NCBI RefSeq assembly: GCF_001428385.1
Contig: NZ_LMSK01000001.1
Span: 249,355-313,354, forward strand
Origin: Rhodanobacter sp. Soil772
Lineage (GTDB): Bacteria; Pseudomonadota; Gammaproteobacteria; Xanthomonadales; Rhodanobacteraceae
DNA length: 64,000 bases
Reading direction: 5' to 3'
The notes below the pieces were generated by a model that searched no databases, was not told where the DNA came from, and saw only the letters and a list, made by a program, of their open reading frames with translations. Below, in pieces: positions 1 through 61,090 of the stretch. Every line of letters starts with the position of its first letter. The stretch's first letter is position 1. Position numbers and translations under genes: made by a program.

Positions 1-1158
1 CTTGGTGTCCAGCGCCTGCTGCAGCTTGAGGACGCTGTTCTGCTTGCCGAGCTCTTCGGTTTCCAGCTTGCGGGTCAGGACCTTCTGCTGCACCGTTTGA
101 TAGGCCAATGCCTGTGCCGCGGCATCATCGAGCGAGCCCTTGTTCTGGGCGACATAGTGTTCGTAGTAGGCGAGTGCGGAAGCTGCGTTGCCGTGGCGCT
201 TCGCGACCCGGTAGAGCACCCCGTAGGCATCCATAAGGTAGTCGTTGATGTCGTCCGGGCTGGCCATCGCCACGGCGTCGAGCGCCGCCTTTCGGGCGTC
301 TTCATCTTTACCAAGTTGCTCATACGCCTGAGCTCGCTGCACCTGCGCGGACAGCGTGTGCGGGTAGTAATGGTTGACCCGGATGCTCGGCGCTATCCGG
401 TCGAGCAGCGACAACGCTTTGGCGGGCTGGTGTTCTTCCAGGAAGAGCGTGCTAAGGATGAGCTGCCCAGTTGTTGTCATGATGGGCTGTCGAGCCGCTT
501 CGCACGTATCGATGACCTGCTTCAGCTCCGGGCTCGAGGATGTGAGCCGCTTGGCGTTATAGAGCGCGGCAACCAGCTTGGAACGCGAGTAGCACGAGGT
601 CGTATCTGAAGGAACGGTGTCCTCCATCATATGGGCGTACTTGATCGCCAGATCCGTCTGTCCGGCCAGGTTCAACGTCTGGGACAGATAGCTGAGAACC
701 TGGAGGCGGACCGCCTTGTCCTGGATCCGGGGTAGGTCGATCGCGAGCTGTTGGGCCAACTTGAAGGCGTCTTCGTAGCGATGACCGACCGCCAGGTTGT
801 TCATGAGCAGCGCCGATGCCTTGGTGGCAAGCGTCGGATCGCCTGAATGATCGATCACATCGTGCAGCGGTTTTTCCGCGGCGGCGAATTTGCCACCCAT
901 CGAAAACTCAAGCGCATCGAGATAACGCAGGTGCCATTGCTCGGCCGTGGTGAGTACGGGCGACTCGCGATGGATCTGCGCCAGCCGTTCGGCGAACTGC
1001 CGGTGGTCCTTGATGCGCAGATCCTCAGTCTGGTCGAGGAATGCGCTTGCGTCGGTGATCCTGGGAGTATCGGTGGCGTGGTTTGCCTGCATCAGTGCGC
1101 ACAAAAGCAGGCCCGCCAAAGCGGTCCCCAGTCGTCTTCCCTGCTGACCGATGAGCAC
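1..1158 (-). CDS. TPR-repeat membrane signalling protein, N-terminal part (paralogue of the TPR diguanylate cyclase at 59315), cut by window edge
   Basis: Only the N-terminal ~386 codons lie in the window. The frame is open from a GTG at 1158, which lies 11 nt beyond the stop of the upstream precursor gene. A hydrophobic stretch (LGTALAGLLLCALMQA) reads as a signal peptide. After it come helical repeats of TPR type. The last visible residues (AYQTVQQKVLTRKLE, then GKQNSVLKLQQALDTK) align closely with the segment just before the membrane helix of the protein at 59315-61090. By that match the missing part should hold a membrane helix and a GGDEF domain, but this is inference because neither is in view. 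The start is uncertain: no good ribosome site precedes the GTG. It is last in the order methyltransferase, precursor, TPR protein, which matches the other locus. Confidence 0.85.
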   Translation of the reverse strand, partial: MLIGQQGRRLGTALAGLLLCALMQANHATDTPRITDASAFLDQTEDLRIKDHRQFAERLAQIHRESPVLTTAEQWHLRYLDALEFSMGGKFAAAEKPLHDVIDHSGDPTLATKASALLMNNLAVGHRYEDAFKLAQQLAIDLPRIQDKAVRLQVLSYLSQTLNLAGQTDLAIKYAHMMEDTVPSDTTSCYSRSKLVAALYNAKRLTSSSPELKQVIDTCEAARQPIMTTTGQLILSTLFLEEHQPAKALSLLDRIAPSIRVNHYYPHTLSAQVQRAQAYEQLGKDEDARKAALDAVAMASPDDINDYLMDAYGVLYRVAKRHGNAASALAYYEHYVAQNKGSLDDAAAQALAYQTVQQKVLTRKLETEELGKQNSVLKLQQALDTK

Positions 1159-1169
1159 GGTGCGAGAGG

Positions 1170-1478
1170 TTATTGTTTGTGCGGCGTACGTTTGTGCGGC
1201 GGGCTGTGACCGGGATCGGGCGGACGATGCGGCTTGTCGTCGCCGTCATGGTCCGGCTCGTCCTCCTCATGTCCAGGCGCATTGGTGATCTGCGGTACCC
1301 GATTCGGCTGGTGTCCGAATTCTTCGGACAGAAGCGAGCTGTCGCCCGCCGCGACGGCAGACTTGAGGGCCTCGGACGCCTTCGCCTGTTCGAGAATGGA
1401 CGCTAGCTCGTCGACAGATGCGTGGCGCAGCGTGGCGTTCCGGCCGATGGCTTCTAGAAGTTCGATCGTGTCCGACAT
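1170..1478 (-). CDS. Split-borosin precursor peptide (locus 1)
   Basis: A 102-residue peptide that begins MSDTIELLEAIGRNATLRHA. Residues 1-55 match the leaders of the two precursors at 58.7-59.3 kb. They share the start MS-x2-I-[ED]-x-LE, a GQDA-like site (here GRNA) and a GD-x3-L-x3-G element ending at Gly55. This is the pattern of the helical borosin binding domain known from SonA of Shewanella. The region after Gly55 holds VPQITNAPG, then an acidic run and a Pro/His-rich tail. The core aligns with the [AV]-P-G end of the other precursors but lacks their cysteine. A purine-rich ribosome site (AGGGGGAAAAC) sits just before the ATG. The methyltransferase stop is 57 nt upstream. The product should be a substrate for backbone N-methylation; the methylated residues cannot be read from sequence. 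Confidence 0.8.
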   Translation of the reverse strand: MSDTIELLEAIGRNATLRHASVDELASILEQAKASEALKSAVAAGDSSLLSEEFGHQPNRVPQITNAPGHEEDEPDHDGDDKPHRPPDPGHSPPHKRTPHKQ

Positions 1479-1535
1479 GTTTTCCCCCTGTTCCCACGTA
1501 TCCGTTTTGCGAGCACTGCGGATCGCCGCAGTGTG

Positions 1536-2387
1536 TCAAGCGATGGAAGCTTCCTTGTCCAGTGCCGCCAGCCGTTCACGCATGGCTGGATTCTGCTTCA
1601 AGGGCGCGCCGGGCGGTAGCACGACCGTCTCCTCGGCGGTCAATTCGGCGCCGGGCAAGTCGCGCAGCGCCATGCGGCGGATCCGCGGTTTCTGGATCGG
1701 CAAGGTGGCGCCGCGATAGATGATCACCTCGTGGTCGAGCGGATAGTCCGCGCTCAGCACGTCCACCAGTGCCTGCCGGTAGGCCGGCCCGGTGGAAAAG
1801 CGTTTCAGGGACAGATCACCCACCAGTCCGACTTGCCACAGCACCAGATAGCCGGCCGGATCAATCCGCCGTTCGTAGAAAAGCAGCTGGCTGGCCTCAA
1901 AGTGCTGGCAGCCGAAGCGGCCCGGGTCGATGCCCAGGTCGGCGTAGAGGCAGTCCTCGGCGGAAATGCCCGGTTCCATGTGCGCCTTGAAGCCTTCCGC
2001 GCGGGCCACCTCGATGGCCTTGTGCGGCGACCAGGCGAAGATGCCGGGGTGGCCGTAGAACACGCCGCAAACGTTCTTGCCGGCACGCACCTCGGTCATC
2101 ATCAGGTCGACCCACTGCCGGTACGTGACCATCCTCGACTTGCCCTCCGCGTAGTAGGGCTGGAGGCTGCGCACGTCAGAATGCATGCGCTGCAGCCACA
2201 GCTCCACGATGCCATCGGAGAGCGCCGCGAACACCACGTCCGCCTGTTCGATATGGCTGCGTGCCAGGGGCGTGAGATGGGAGCCCAGAGTCATGCCCAA
2301 ACCGACGCACGCCAGACTGCCGCGTCGTGCGTGGTTCGATGGCGAAAGAGTCGGTGTGCTCACTGCGCGATAGTAGGGCAATTTCAT
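1536..2387 (-). CDS. Split-borosin alpha-N-methyltransferase (locus 1), tetrapyrrole methylase fold
   Basis: A 283-residue SAM-dependent methyltransferase. The glycine-rich loop VGLGMTLG is near residues 28-35, and MEPGISAEDCLYADLGIDPG is a long conserved block. The residues known to be needed in borosin methyltransferases appear as Y79, R85, Y89 (YYAEGKSRMVTY) and Y111 in YGHPGIF. SonM of Shewanella shows the same blocks. The fungal enzymes carry the peptide fused at the C terminus; this one has no core, so it is a split type with the precursor encoded next. It is nearly colinear with the enzyme at 57712. I chose the ATG at 2387 because the longer frame upstream is low-complexity and unlike the family. 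A GTG a few codons later is possible. The usual default label would be cobalamin/precorrin methylase, but no cobalamin gene is near. Confidence 0.85.
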   Translation of the reverse strand: MKLPYYRAVSTPTLSPSNHARRGSLACVGLGMTLGSHLTPLARSHIEQADVVFAALSDGIVELWLQRMHSDVRSLQPYYAEGKSRMVTYRQWVDLMMTEVRAGKNVCGVFYGHPGIFAWSPHKAIEVARAEGFKAHMEPGISAEDCLYADLGIDPGRFGCQHFEASQLLFYERRIDPAGYLVLWQVGLVGDLSLKRFSTGPAYRQALVDVLSADYPLDHEVIIYRGATLPIQKPRIRRMALRDLPGAELTAEETVVLPPGAPLKQNPAMRERLAALDKEASIA

Positions 2388-57711: not shown

Positions 57712-58533
57712 ATGGATGCAGCACGTTCACCCGGAAGCCTGGTCTGCGTGGGCCTCGGCATGACCCTGGGCTCGCACCTCGGTCCGCTGGCGCGCAGCCA
57801 CATCGAACAGGCGGACGTGGTGTTCGCCGGGCTCTCCGACGGCATCGTCGAGCTGTGGTTGAACAAGATGCACCCGGACGTGCGCAGCCTGCAGCCGTAC
57901 TACCACGAGGGCAAGTCGCGCATGCAGACCTACCGCGAGATGGTCGAGGCCATCCTCACCGAGGTGCGCGCGGGCAAGCGGGTGTGCGGGGTGTTCTACG
58001 GCCATCCTGGCGTGTTCGCCTGGGCACCGCACAAGTCGATCGAGGTCGCTCGCAGCGAGGGCTACCCCGCGCACATGGAGCCGGGCATTTCCGCCGAGGA
58101 TTGCCTCTACGCGGACCTCGGCATCGACCCGGGCCGCTACGGCTGCCAGCACTTCGAGGCCAGCCAGCTGCTGTTCTACCAGCGCCGGATCGACCCGACC
58201 GCCTACCTGGTGTTGTGGCAGGTAGGCCTGGTGGGCGACCAGTCGCTGGCCCGCTTCTCGACGGGCCCCGCGTACAAGCAGGTGCTGGTCGACGTGCTGG
58301 CGCGCGACTACCCGCTCGACCACGAGATCACCATCTACCGCGGCGCCACCTTGCCGATCCAGCAGGCGCGCATCGAGCGGGTGAAGCTGCGCGACCTGCC
58401 GCAGGCGAAGGTCGAGATGGAGGATACGGTGGTCGTGCCTCCTGCAGGTCCGCTGCGGCCGAATGCGGAGCTCCGCGCGCGGCTGGCCGAACTGGATCGG
58501 GCCGAGGCCACAGCCCAGGTGGATATTCTGTGA
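57712..58533 (+). CDS. Split-borosin alpha-N-methyltransferase (locus 2)
   Basis: A 273-residue SAM-dependent methyltransferase of the tetrapyrrole methylase fold. The SAM loop is VGLGMTLG (13-20). The residues needed in borosin methyltransferases are Y64, R70, Y74 and Y96 (YYHEGKSRMQTYREM; FYGHPGVFAW). The signature MEPGISAEDCLYADLGIDPG is at 122-141. Later blocks (PLDHEITIYRGATLPIQQAR) match SonM of Shewanella, a known split-borosin enzyme. It should methylate backbone amides of the precursors that follow. No core peptide is fused at the C terminus. It lies 65 nt after the slipin stop and has no own promoter that I can see, so it may share that operon. Confidence 0.88.
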   Translation: MDAARSPGSLVCVGLGMTLGSHLGPLARSHIEQADVVFAGLSDGIVELWLNKMHPDVRSLQPYYHEGKSRMQTYREMVEAILTEVRAGKRVCGVFYGHPGVFAWAPHKSIEVARSEGYPAHMEPGISAEDCLYADLGIDPGRYGCQHFEASQLLFYQRRIDPTAYLVLWQVGLVGDQSLARFSTGPAYKQVLVDVLARDYPLDHEITIYRGATLPIQQARIERVKLRDLPQAKVEMEDTVVVPPAGPLRPNAELRARLAELDRAEATAQVDIL

Positions 58534-58678
58534 GCAGGTAGACAAGTTGGTGTTGGCGGCGTCCCTAGGATGGTTTGGCGCAGGCTTGCAGTTGCCGGTA
58601 ATTGGGCGGGCTTATCTCGTCCCGGTGGCTGAGCGGTCCGCGTATTTCAACCAACCGTACACTCGAGGAGAGAACGCC

Positions 58679-58945
58679 ATGTCCAATATCATCGATTTCC
58701 TGGAAACCGTCGGGCAGGACGCCAATCTGCGCTACGCTTCCAACGGGGAAATGCAGCACATGCTGGTCAATAGCCAGCTGGATCAGGATATCAAGCAAGC
58801 TGTGCTGGCCAGGGATCAGCAACGATTGACAGCGCTGGTAGGGGCACAGAATGTATGCTGCTTGCTGGTTCCTGCGCAGGTGCGGTGCTTGCTGGTTCCT
58901 GGGATCAACGACGAAGATGAACATTACGAAGAGCGGCGTGCCTGA
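58679..58945 (+). CDS. Split-borosin precursor A with duplicated core
   Basis: An 88-residue peptide. Residues 1-55 form the helical leader (MSNIIDFLETVGQDANLRYA, then the RD-x3-L-x3-G element ending at Gly55), close to SonA's binding domain. The core has two copies: C61-LLVP-A66 and C70-LLVP-G75, with AQNVC and AQVR before them. The repeat exists at DNA level as a perfect 16-nt direct repeat, TGCTTGCTGGTTCCTG (58859-58874 and 58886-58901), period 27 nt or nine codons. The tail is acidic (NDEDEHYEE). CGAGGAGAGAAC precedes the ATG. The Leu-Leu-Val run lines up with the methylated hydrophobic stretch of SonA; which residues are methylated here is not known. Confidence 0.88.
   Translation: MSNIIDFLETVGQDANLRYASNGEMQHMLVNSQLDQDIKQAVLARDQQRLTALVGAQNVCCLLVPAQVRCLLVPGINDEDEHYEERRA
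58859..58901 (+). repeat. Direct repeat within precursor A core (16 nt, period 27 nt)
   Basis: Two perfect copies of TGCTTGCTGGTTCCTG at 58859-58874 and 58886-58901 encode CLLVP twice. The period is nine codons, so the duplication keeps the frame and multiplies the core peptide. This is the only clear tandem duplication I found inside a coding gene in the window. Confidence 0.95.
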
Positions 58946-59027
58946 GGCGAGTCGGATTCGCTGACGCATGGCGAAAGAGGTCCGCATTGCCATGGACGCT
59001 GATTACGTCAGCAATCAGGGGGTTCGC

Positions 59028-59309
59028 ATGTCCAATGTCATTGAGTTTCTCGAAAAGATGGGGCAGGACGCGCAGTTGAGTTGCGCAACAAAGGGCTCAC
59101 TCGATTTTGCGCCGATGCTGGCTGGCCTTGACCCGATGCTGCAGAGGGCGATTTGTGGCGGGGACCGAGCAAAACTGGGGGCCCTGATGGGGGTTACGCC
59201 TGTCTGCGGTTTCTTGGCGCCGGGGGAAGAGCAGGAAGAGGATGATTCTGAAGAAACCCCTCCCCCTGATGATGGCGAGGAACGTTCGGTGTCAGATCTC
59301 GCGAACTAA
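59028..59309 (+). CDS. Split-borosin precursor B
   Basis: A 93-residue peptide. The leader MSNVIEFLEKMGQDAQLSCA and GGDRAKLGALMG (ending at Gly55) match SonA's binding domain in both GQDAQL and GD-x3-L-x3-G. The core region VTPVCGFLAPG aligns with the core of precursor A (V-C-x-[LF]-L-[VA]-P-[AG]). The tail is strongly acidic and Pro-rich (EEQEEDDSEETPPPDDGEE). I chose the ATG at 59028, since AGGGGG precedes it and it aligns with the other precursors; a 20-residue extension from 58968 is unlikely. The TPR-GGDEF gene begins 5 nt after the stop. Confidence 0.86.
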   Translation: MSNVIEFLEKMGQDAQLSCATKGSLDFAPMLAGLDPMLQRAICGGDRAKLGALMGVTPVCGFLAPGEEQEEDDSEETPPPDDGEERSVSDLAN

Positions 59310-59314
59310 GTTCA

Positions 59315-61090
59315 GTGTTCACGTCCGGCACGCAGCGTCGGGGAATGATCCTGGGATGGATCCTGCTTGGGTTGTCATTCGCGGGTATGGCCATTGCGGC
59401 CATACCCGCGTCTGCCAGTGATCCCATGTCATTGCTCAAGCAAGCGGACAGCATCAAGTTGTCGGATCAGGGGCAGTTCCTCGAAATACTCGATGTTTTG
59501 GGTAATGACAGCGTGCGCTTGCCACCCGATCAGCTGGACTATCTTCGTTACCTGCAGGCTTGGGGGGCAGCGTACCGAGGTGACTACAAGTTGTCGGATT
59601 CCCTTCTCAAGGGTCTTCTGAATCATTCCGCGGACTTGACCCTTCATTTCAGGGCGGGAGTACTGCTCGTCAACACGCTGGCGGAGCGATCACGGTACGA
59701 AGAGGCGTTTCAACGGCAAAGTTTGTTGCTTGCCGAGTTGCCAAAGATTACCGATCCCGACGCGCGCAAGCAGGCGCTTGTCATTGCGGCCTATTTGTAC
59801 GAAGAGGCCGGGCAATATGATCTGGCATTTACGTACGCCGATCAGCTGTTCAGAGAGACTCCGGAAATTAGTGAATACAGTTGTATTGCTGGCCACGCGG
59901 AGCTCGCGGCGTTGTACAAGAGCGATAAACTGGAGGGCATCGATCGCAAATTCCAGAAGGGCATCGATATCTGCACCAAGGTAGGCGACCTGGTTTATGC
60001 CAATGGAATCAGGTTTTATGAAGCGAGCTTGGCTCTGCAGCGAGGTCGTACTGACATTGCTCTCCAAATATTGAAGAGCAACTACGCCGATGTCCAACAT
60101 ACCAAGTATCAGATGCTGATCTCTCAGTTCGACGCGTCGTTGGCCGAGGCGTATAGGAAAACCAACCGTCCAGCACTGGCGCGGCAGTATGCACTGGCAG
60201 TAGTCGACCAAAGCAAAAGCAACAGATTTGCCGAGCCGCTGAGTATCGCCTATCAAGTCTTGTATCTGACCGAGAAGCAACAAGGGCGCATGGAGGCTGC
60301 GCTTGCTTATCACGAGCAGTACATGGATACCAACAAAGGCTATTTGAACGCGGTGAATGCCAGGGCGTTGGCATATCAGACTGTGCAACAGCAACTGCTG
60401 GCCAAGAAGCTTCAGGTTGATACCTTGGGCAAGCAGAACCAGATCCTGCAGCTCCAGCGAAATCTCGACAAAAAGGCTTCCGAAACGGGTCGCTTGTACA
60501 TACTGTTGTTGCTCACCGTACTGGCTTTCATCGGTTTTTGGGCCTACCGCGTCAAGCGTTCGCAGCTGCGTTTCATGAAACTGGCGCGGCGCGACGGCCT
60601 CACCGGCATCTTCAACCGGCAGCACTTCGTCAACGAGGCCGAGCGGCAGTTGCGTTATTGCCGCAAATCGGCGCGCGATGTTTGCCTGGTGCTGATCGAC
60701 CTGGATCACTTCAAGGCGGTCAACGACACCCATGGGCATGCGGTGGGCGACCGGGTGCTTAGGCGCGCGGTCGATGCCTGCCAGGCGCACCTGCGCTCCA
60801 CCGACGTGTTCGGCCGTCTCGGCGGGGAGGAGTTCGGCATGTTGTTGCCCGAGTGCACGCTAGGCAACGTACTGGTGCGGGTCGAGCAGATGCGCGCGGC
60901 GATCGCCGCCGTTTCGAGTGTCAAGGATGCGCCCGGCATCCCGATCTCGGCCAGCTTCGGCGTGGCCAACGCGGCCGACTCCGATTATGAGTTGCGGCAG
61001 CTGATGATCGATGCCGATCGCGCCCTGTACCAGGCCAAGCACGAGGGGCGCAACCGGGTCAGCCTTTTTGGCGTCGGCATGCGTAACTGA
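59315..61090 (+). CDS. Diguanylate cyclase with periplasmic TPR sensor region, borosin locus 2
   Basis: A 591-residue protein. The signal peptide (MILGWILLGLSFAGMAIAAI) is followed by about 350 residues of TPR-like helices and a membrane helix (YILLLLTVLAFIGFWAYRVK, 395-414). The GGDEF domain (about 424-591) has RDGLTGIFNRQHFVNEAERQ, LIDLDHFKAVNDTHGHAVGD and GGEEF at 503-507. The I-site RSTD (494-497) sits five residues before it, so product inhibition is likely. The sensor part faces the periplasm and the enzyme the cytoplasm. The start is GTG at 59315 or ATG at 59345, which has GGGG upstream. The DNA before about 60560 is clearly less GC-rich than the GGDEF part. Confidence 0.93.
   Translation: MFTSGTQRRGMILGWILLGLSFAGMAIAAIPASASDPMSLLKQADSIKLSDQGQFLEILDVLGNDSVRLPPDQLDYLRYLQAWGAAYRGDYKLSDSLLKGLLNHSADLTLHFRAGVLLVNTLAERSRYEEAFQRQSLLLAELPKITDPDARKQALVIAAYLYEEAGQYDLAFTYADQLFRETPEISEYSCIAGHAELAALYKSDKLEGIDRKFQKGIDICTKVGDLVYANGIRFYEASLALQRGRTDIALQILKSNYADVQHTKYQMLISQFDASLAEAYRKTNRPALARQYALAVVDQSKSNRFAEPLSIAYQVLYLTEKQQGRMEAALAYHEQYMDTNKGYLNAVNARALAYQTVQQQLLAKKLQVDTLGKQNQILQLQRNLDKKASETGRLYILLLLTVLAFIGFWAYRVKRSQLRFMKLARRDGLTGIFNRQHFVNEAERQLRYCRKSARDVCLVLIDLDHFKAVNDTHGHAVGDRVLRRAVDACQAHLRSTDVFGRLGGEEFGMLLPECTLGNVLVRVEQMRAAIAAVSSVKDAPGIPISASFGVANAADSDYELRQLMIDADRALYQAKHEGRNRVSLFGVGMRN

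Follow-up and report, generated by a model that had tools for sequence, protein, structure and literature searches.

The region analyzed here is part of a 64,000-nucleotide (nt) stretch of the Rhodanobacter sp. Soil772 genome (contig NZ_LMSK01000001.1, positions 249,355 to 313,354; this whole stretch is called the window, and positions are counted from its first letter). Four genes, all on the + strand, are predicted to encode a split-borosin methyltransferase (MT), two small precursor proteins, A and B, and a membrane-bound diguanylate cyclase with the features of a receptor (Table 1). They are separated by gaps of 145, 82 and 5 nt; this order and these gaps had been reported in an original prediction made from the sequence without database searches, and the recomputed coordinates agree with them. 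The receptor reading frame is listed from its GTG codon, and an in-frame ATG at 59345 is an alternative start.

Table 1. Features of the two cassettes in the window (aa, amino acids; ORF, open reading frame)
Feature	Position	Strand	Description
Split-borosin alpha-N-methyltransferase (MT), SonM homolog	57712..58533	+	273 aa; Pfam TP_methylase, E 1.5e-19
Precursor A	58679..58945	+	88 aa; leader 1-55, tandem core NVCCLLVPAQVRCLLVPG, short acidic tail
Precursor B, adjoining the receptor	59028..59309	+	93 aa; leader 1-55, core VTPVCGFLAPG, long acidic tail
Receptor-like diguanylate cyclase (P0004)	59315..61090	+	591 aa; GTG start
Second-cassette MT	1536..2387	-	77% identity with the first MT; ORF open from 2633, exact start codon uncertain
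Second-cassette precursor	1170..1478	-	102 aa; core region HQPNRVPQITNAPG; BBD profile match 4e-24
Second receptor, TPR part	1..1158	-	continues past the window; full length in the genome 593 aa (L172:2377-4158)

When the MT is compared with the borosin enzyme SonM (PDB 7ltc), the match extends over 254 aligned columns at 50% identity (E 5.1e-78). Residues Y64, R70, Y74 and Y96 align with SonM Y58, R67, Y71 and Y93, which are residues probed by mutation according to the accessible text of PMC8429565, and the four active-site residues are kept in 84/84 family rows and 19/20 distant rows of the MT alignment. The leaders of both precursors carry a Gly at position 55, as does that of SonA. Single precursors match SonA weakly (E 0.28 and 0.12), yet the alignment begins at residue 1, and a profile built from 43 Rhodanobacteraceae-only precursors (profile A3) finds SonA in the PDB with E=4.5e-6. 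The AlphaFold2 model of precursor A has a helical leader (predicted local distance difference test score, pLDDT, 72), and Foldseek ranks SonA entries first for it with a non-significant E value of 0.8; the profile search was therefore taken as the evidence for the precursors. Because the MT resembles SonM and the precursor profile finds SonA, the locus has, in its sequence, the architecture of an ordinary-looking type IV split borosin. The original prediction had likewise described a SonM/SonA-like split-borosin locus in which two precursors accompany a TPR diguanylate cyclase, with the four borosin residues in the enzyme and leaders ending at Gly55. It had proposed that the proteins be searched against the borosin families, and the homology, profile, alignment and motif evidence bears out all of these points.

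By simple count, precursors A and B have a Leu at position 63 and a Pro at position 65. SonM methylates SonA at L63 and I65, as stated in the accessible part of PMC8429565, and by analogy the cores of A and B would be N-methylated near residue 63. Repeated cores are present in the precursors at window positions 58679-58945, L028:8042-8308 and L067:7956-8291 (for example NVCCLLVPAQVRCLLVPG and SNVCCMMLPATVCCMMLPG), and one such precursor may therefore yield two peptides. A long acidic tail is frequent on the precursor that adjoins the receptor. At L056:7483-10105, seven tandem borosin-type precursors precede one receptor, and the long acidic tail is found on the last of them and not on the earlier ones.

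The fourth gene product has a strong Pfam match to GGDEF (5e-41) and a weak one to TPR. Its hydrophobic windows at residues 12-30 and 388-406 are consistent with a signal sequence and one transmembrane (TM) helix at about 388-406, and a basic segment follows the second of these; we therefore place the TPR part, as predicted, in the periplasm and the GGEEF part in the cytoplasm. The motifs RSTD, VFGRL and GGEEF correspond to a GG(D/E)EF signature with an RxxD inhibitory site, GGEEF being found in 92/93 receptors and RxxD in 82/92, and in its sequence features the protein is a diguanylate cyclase. Two cysteines in neighboring helices of the TPR domain, Cys190 and Cys220, are present in 47/47 family rows and 8/11 distant rows and probably form a periplasmic disulfide.

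The association of these genes was examined in the best 80 of 160 confirmed relative loci, some organisms contributing more than one. Three loci in which no more than 121 nt of contig remain beyond the MT were set aside, and in the remaining 77 a precursor with a borosin leader is always found (77/77) and a TPR receptor follows in 76. Since the order recurs in 76/77 related loci with enough sequence, the row of genes is more than a product of chance. The GGDEF domain is seen in 73 of the receptor loci, the other three being cut by the contig end, and the median distance from the precursor stop to the receptor ORF is 11 nt. Among 233 genomes of the family, in which the MT was called at 1e-40 and the receptor at the different cut-off of 1e-20, the MT occurs in 162 and the receptor domain in 164: every genome with the MT has the receptor (162/162), two carry the receptor without the MT, and MT and receptor are both missing from 69. 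The corresponding Fisher p of 1.4e-57 overstates the case because the genomes are related. The original prediction had proposed a locus comparison to show if Rhodanobacteraceae always carry the GGDEF gene, and the answer from these counts is nearly always. The same arrangement extends to the genome that encodes SonM at 100% identity, where SonM and SonA are followed, directly after the SonA stop, by a TPR-GGDEF protein of 596 aa. In 20 loci (L184-L203) picked from matches in 112/129 genomes of that genus, the receptor domain is present in 20/20, although one is cut by the contig end and in two the TPR and GGDEF parts are split between reading frames; the profile recognized 16/20 of the precursors.

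Three observations suggest that the precursor and the receptor form the unit. First, in loci with one MT and several receptors, each receptor has a separate precursor in 10/12 cases. Second, the pair persists where no intact MT adjoins it: 16 regions were chosen because a receptor match had no MT listed near it, two of these (L217 and L218) did carry an MT and are not counted, and among the remaining 14 a precursor lies directly upstream of the receptor in 11, a broken precursor-like start in two and neither in one. Third, the output domain changes. The 20 distant loci comprise all out-of-family MT matches listed (the precursors of L163 and L164 were recognized by eye, not by the profile), and a TPR receptor is found in 14 of them. 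The output is GGDEF in 11 of these and a hybrid histidine kinase in four, with L152 belonging to both groups. With a profile of 47 family TPR domains, the L152 kinase scores 95 bits against 11 bits for the unlinked TPR-GGDEF protein of the Soil772 genome that served as control. As far as our searches extended, what is new is the evidence that a precursor and a predicted periplasmic TPR receptor make up a conserved unit that is duplicated and whose outputs can be exchanged.

At L152:5084-10730, the TPR histidine kinase and the TPR diguanylate cyclase lie on either side of the borosin MT. At L204, L213 and L219, precursor-receptor pairs stand beside remnants of MT genes, which suggests that the MT can be lost in cis.

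Since relatives keep the peptides and the adjoining membrane enzyme together, the peptides are probably signals read by that enzyme, and we favor with modest confidence the reading that the type IV split-borosin cassette acts as a pair of peptide signal and receptor. In this proposal the MT would bind the precursor leader and, as with SonM and SonA, N-methylate amides of the core backbone; removal of the leader and acidic tail would follow, and the modified core would reach the periplasm. There the TPR domain would bind it, and the single membrane helix would switch the cytoplasmic GGEEF domain, changing the level of cyclic di-GMP (c-di-GMP). The recurring cassette includes neither a transporter nor a protease, which suggests passage through the membrane without a transporter. 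Such passage is possible because backbone methylation affects membrane permeability, listed among its effects in the accessible text of Miller et al., and methylation may thus let the core cross membranes. A broader proposal, which we advance tentatively and place a little short of an even chance, is that split borosins constitute transporter-free peptide signaling in Gram-negative bacteria, in which methylation would make the peptide stable and permeable, one MT would serve several pairs, even in trans, and dedicated periplasmic TPR receptors would pass each peptide signal to c-di-GMP or to a phosphorelay.

The divergence of core and receptor was compared by distances in 82 family modules with GGDEF, MT and leader distances removed. 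Within classes, core-TPR distances correlate at 0.37 in class A (n=39) and 0.30 in class B (n=43), and core-GGDEF distances at 0.25 and 0.07. The predicted TPR superhelix (AlphaFold2, pLDDT 94.5) fits a peptide receptor as well: in the structural alignment (VIA rows) the top matches are peptide-bound Rap complexes with Z about 25, and NprR follows at 23.7 and AimR at about 20.

Several results weigh against a signal and receptor pair. The non-pheromone TPR proteins LGN (22.7), APC5 (21.8) and MalT (21.5) score nearly as high as the best match (25.0), and LGN heads Foldseek's own ranking of matches to the TPR model. The fold thus fails to distinguish peptide receptors from other TPR proteins and, while compatible with a peptide receptor, is no proof of one. 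In the pooled set the correlations are reversed (core-GGDEF 0.38, core-TPR 0.23), and recombination between neighbors could produce the within-class signal; covariation of core and TPR is thus weak support for the pairing. The kinases of L154 (35 bits), L170 (24) and L169 (merely 13) lie closer to the 11-bit control than that of L152, and on these scores L152 makes a convincing case for a swap of output and L154 and L170 a fair one, while in L169 the swap is unproven. No exporter was found for the cassette. One locus among the 77 (L076, 7849-8399) has an MT and two precursors with no receptor in about 7 kb, and 6/20 out-of-family MT loci (L153, L155-L158 and L171, with MTs 32-43% identical to the query) have none either. 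Furthermore, a third TPR-GGDEF protein, 30% identical, is encoded elsewhere in the Soil772 genome with no MT nearby (L173), and TPR-GGDEF proteins thus occur without borosins too.

In L155-L158, where the MTs are 32-40% identical and no receptor lies downstream, a small ORF is found just upstream of the MT in L156 and L157 and perhaps in L155 and L158, and may be a different type of precursor.

An alternative that we regard as unlikely is that the cell exports the peptide as a natural product directed at another target. The cyclase would then do no more than control or accompany the pathway, with its TPR domain sensing some other cue and c-di-GMP tuning production or lifestyle. The existence of L173 agrees with this, and the close spacing of precursor and receptor may simply reflect co-transcription of compact cassettes. 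Duplication together with its own precursor is not, however, what one would expect of a gene with a purely regulatory role, and this alternative is weakened by the ten loci in which the precursor-receptor unit is repeated under one MT; the persistence of the pair in 11/14 loci without an intact adjoining MT and the presence of at least one linked receptor with a kinase output also speak against it.

It is more improbable still that the partner of the TPR domain is the entire precursor, contacted through its leader or acidic tail, or the MT, in a protein-protein scaffold comparable to RcbA/RcbB of Vibrio, and not the mature peptide. According to the accessible part of PMC12282931, the Vibrio TPR domain holds the cyclase in a repressed state, which a protein partner relieves; the frequent long acidic tail of the receptor-adjoining precursor would suit such a contact, as would the strong correlation of leader and TPR distances in class A (0.68). 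In class B, however, this correlation is weak (0.11), and the signal sequence, the TM helix after the TPR domain and the fully conserved Cys pair point to a periplasmic domain, whereas no signal sequence is evident in the precursors (no predictor was run). A role of the MT in cobalamin or tetrapyrrole methylation, with no relation to the small proteins, is hardly credible despite the enzyme's place in Pfam TP_methylase; the original prediction had named the cobalamin case among its possible refutations. This reading is rejected on the SonM match, the four conserved borosin residues and the SonA match of the precursor profile, and NCBIfam models of the cobalamin pathway score far too low, the best reaching 23.6 bits where 246 are required.

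The original prediction had supposed the pairing with a GGDEF protein to lie outside the described borosin types, and this did not hold up, given the row of genes in the SonM genome and the Figure 1 legend of PMC11395268, which, in the accessible part of that paper listing borosin types 0-XI, defines 'GGDEF' among the borosin architectures. The accessible text of the published account of SonM and SonA makes no mention of the gene next to them. Among the literature searched, no paper joins 'borosin' with 'diguanylate cyclase', 'c-di-GMP' or 'Rhodanobacter', although 'borosin' and 'GGDEF' do co-occur in one; the strictness of the link between MT and receptor is in no paper searched, and Imani et al. 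(2022) may already describe the GGDEF neighbor.

The cassette resembles SonM/SonA of Shewanella oneidensis, as described in the accessible text of PMC8429565, in its MT family, discrete precursor, borosin-binding leader and gene order. It differs in having two precursors for one receptor, a long acidic tail, a second cassette in the same genome and a core that is rich in Cys, Leu and Pro with Pro at the second methylated residue of SonA (I65), and relatives of this locus have several precursor-receptor modules under one MT. RcbA/RcbB of Vibrio vulnificus likewise has an N-terminal TPR domain on a diguanylate cyclase, there repressing it, with a partner encoded beside it; that partner is a TPR protein and not a precursor of a ribosomally made peptide, and no methyltransferase is mentioned in the accessible part of PMC12282931.

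RRNPP proteins are cytoplasmic and have DNA-binding (helix-turn-helix) or phosphatase functions. The protein described here has a predicted TPR superhelix that counts the RRNPP receptors Rap, NprR and AimR among its top fold matches, with Z about 25 for Rap and 21-23 for other TPR proteins; its TPR domain is predicted to be periplasmic, in contrast to theirs, and the output is GGDEF or a kinase. Because it has a signal sequence, a TM helix and a GGDEF domain, we do not file it as an RRNPP protein.

The pairing gives split borosins a specific and testable function, with a receptor beside each precursor. If the signal and receptor reading is true, a ribosomal, backbone-methylated peptide signal would be tied to c-di-GMP, and split-borosin ligands and their receptors could be assigned pairwise straight from genome sequence.

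A second cassette lies at the 5' end of the window (1-2387 and beyond) with the same order of MT, precursor and TPR-GGDEF gene as the first, and the receptor TPR profile has exactly two matches in the genome, one per cassette. The core type of this second cassette differs (VPQITNAPG), and it has its own TPR-GGDEF receptor.

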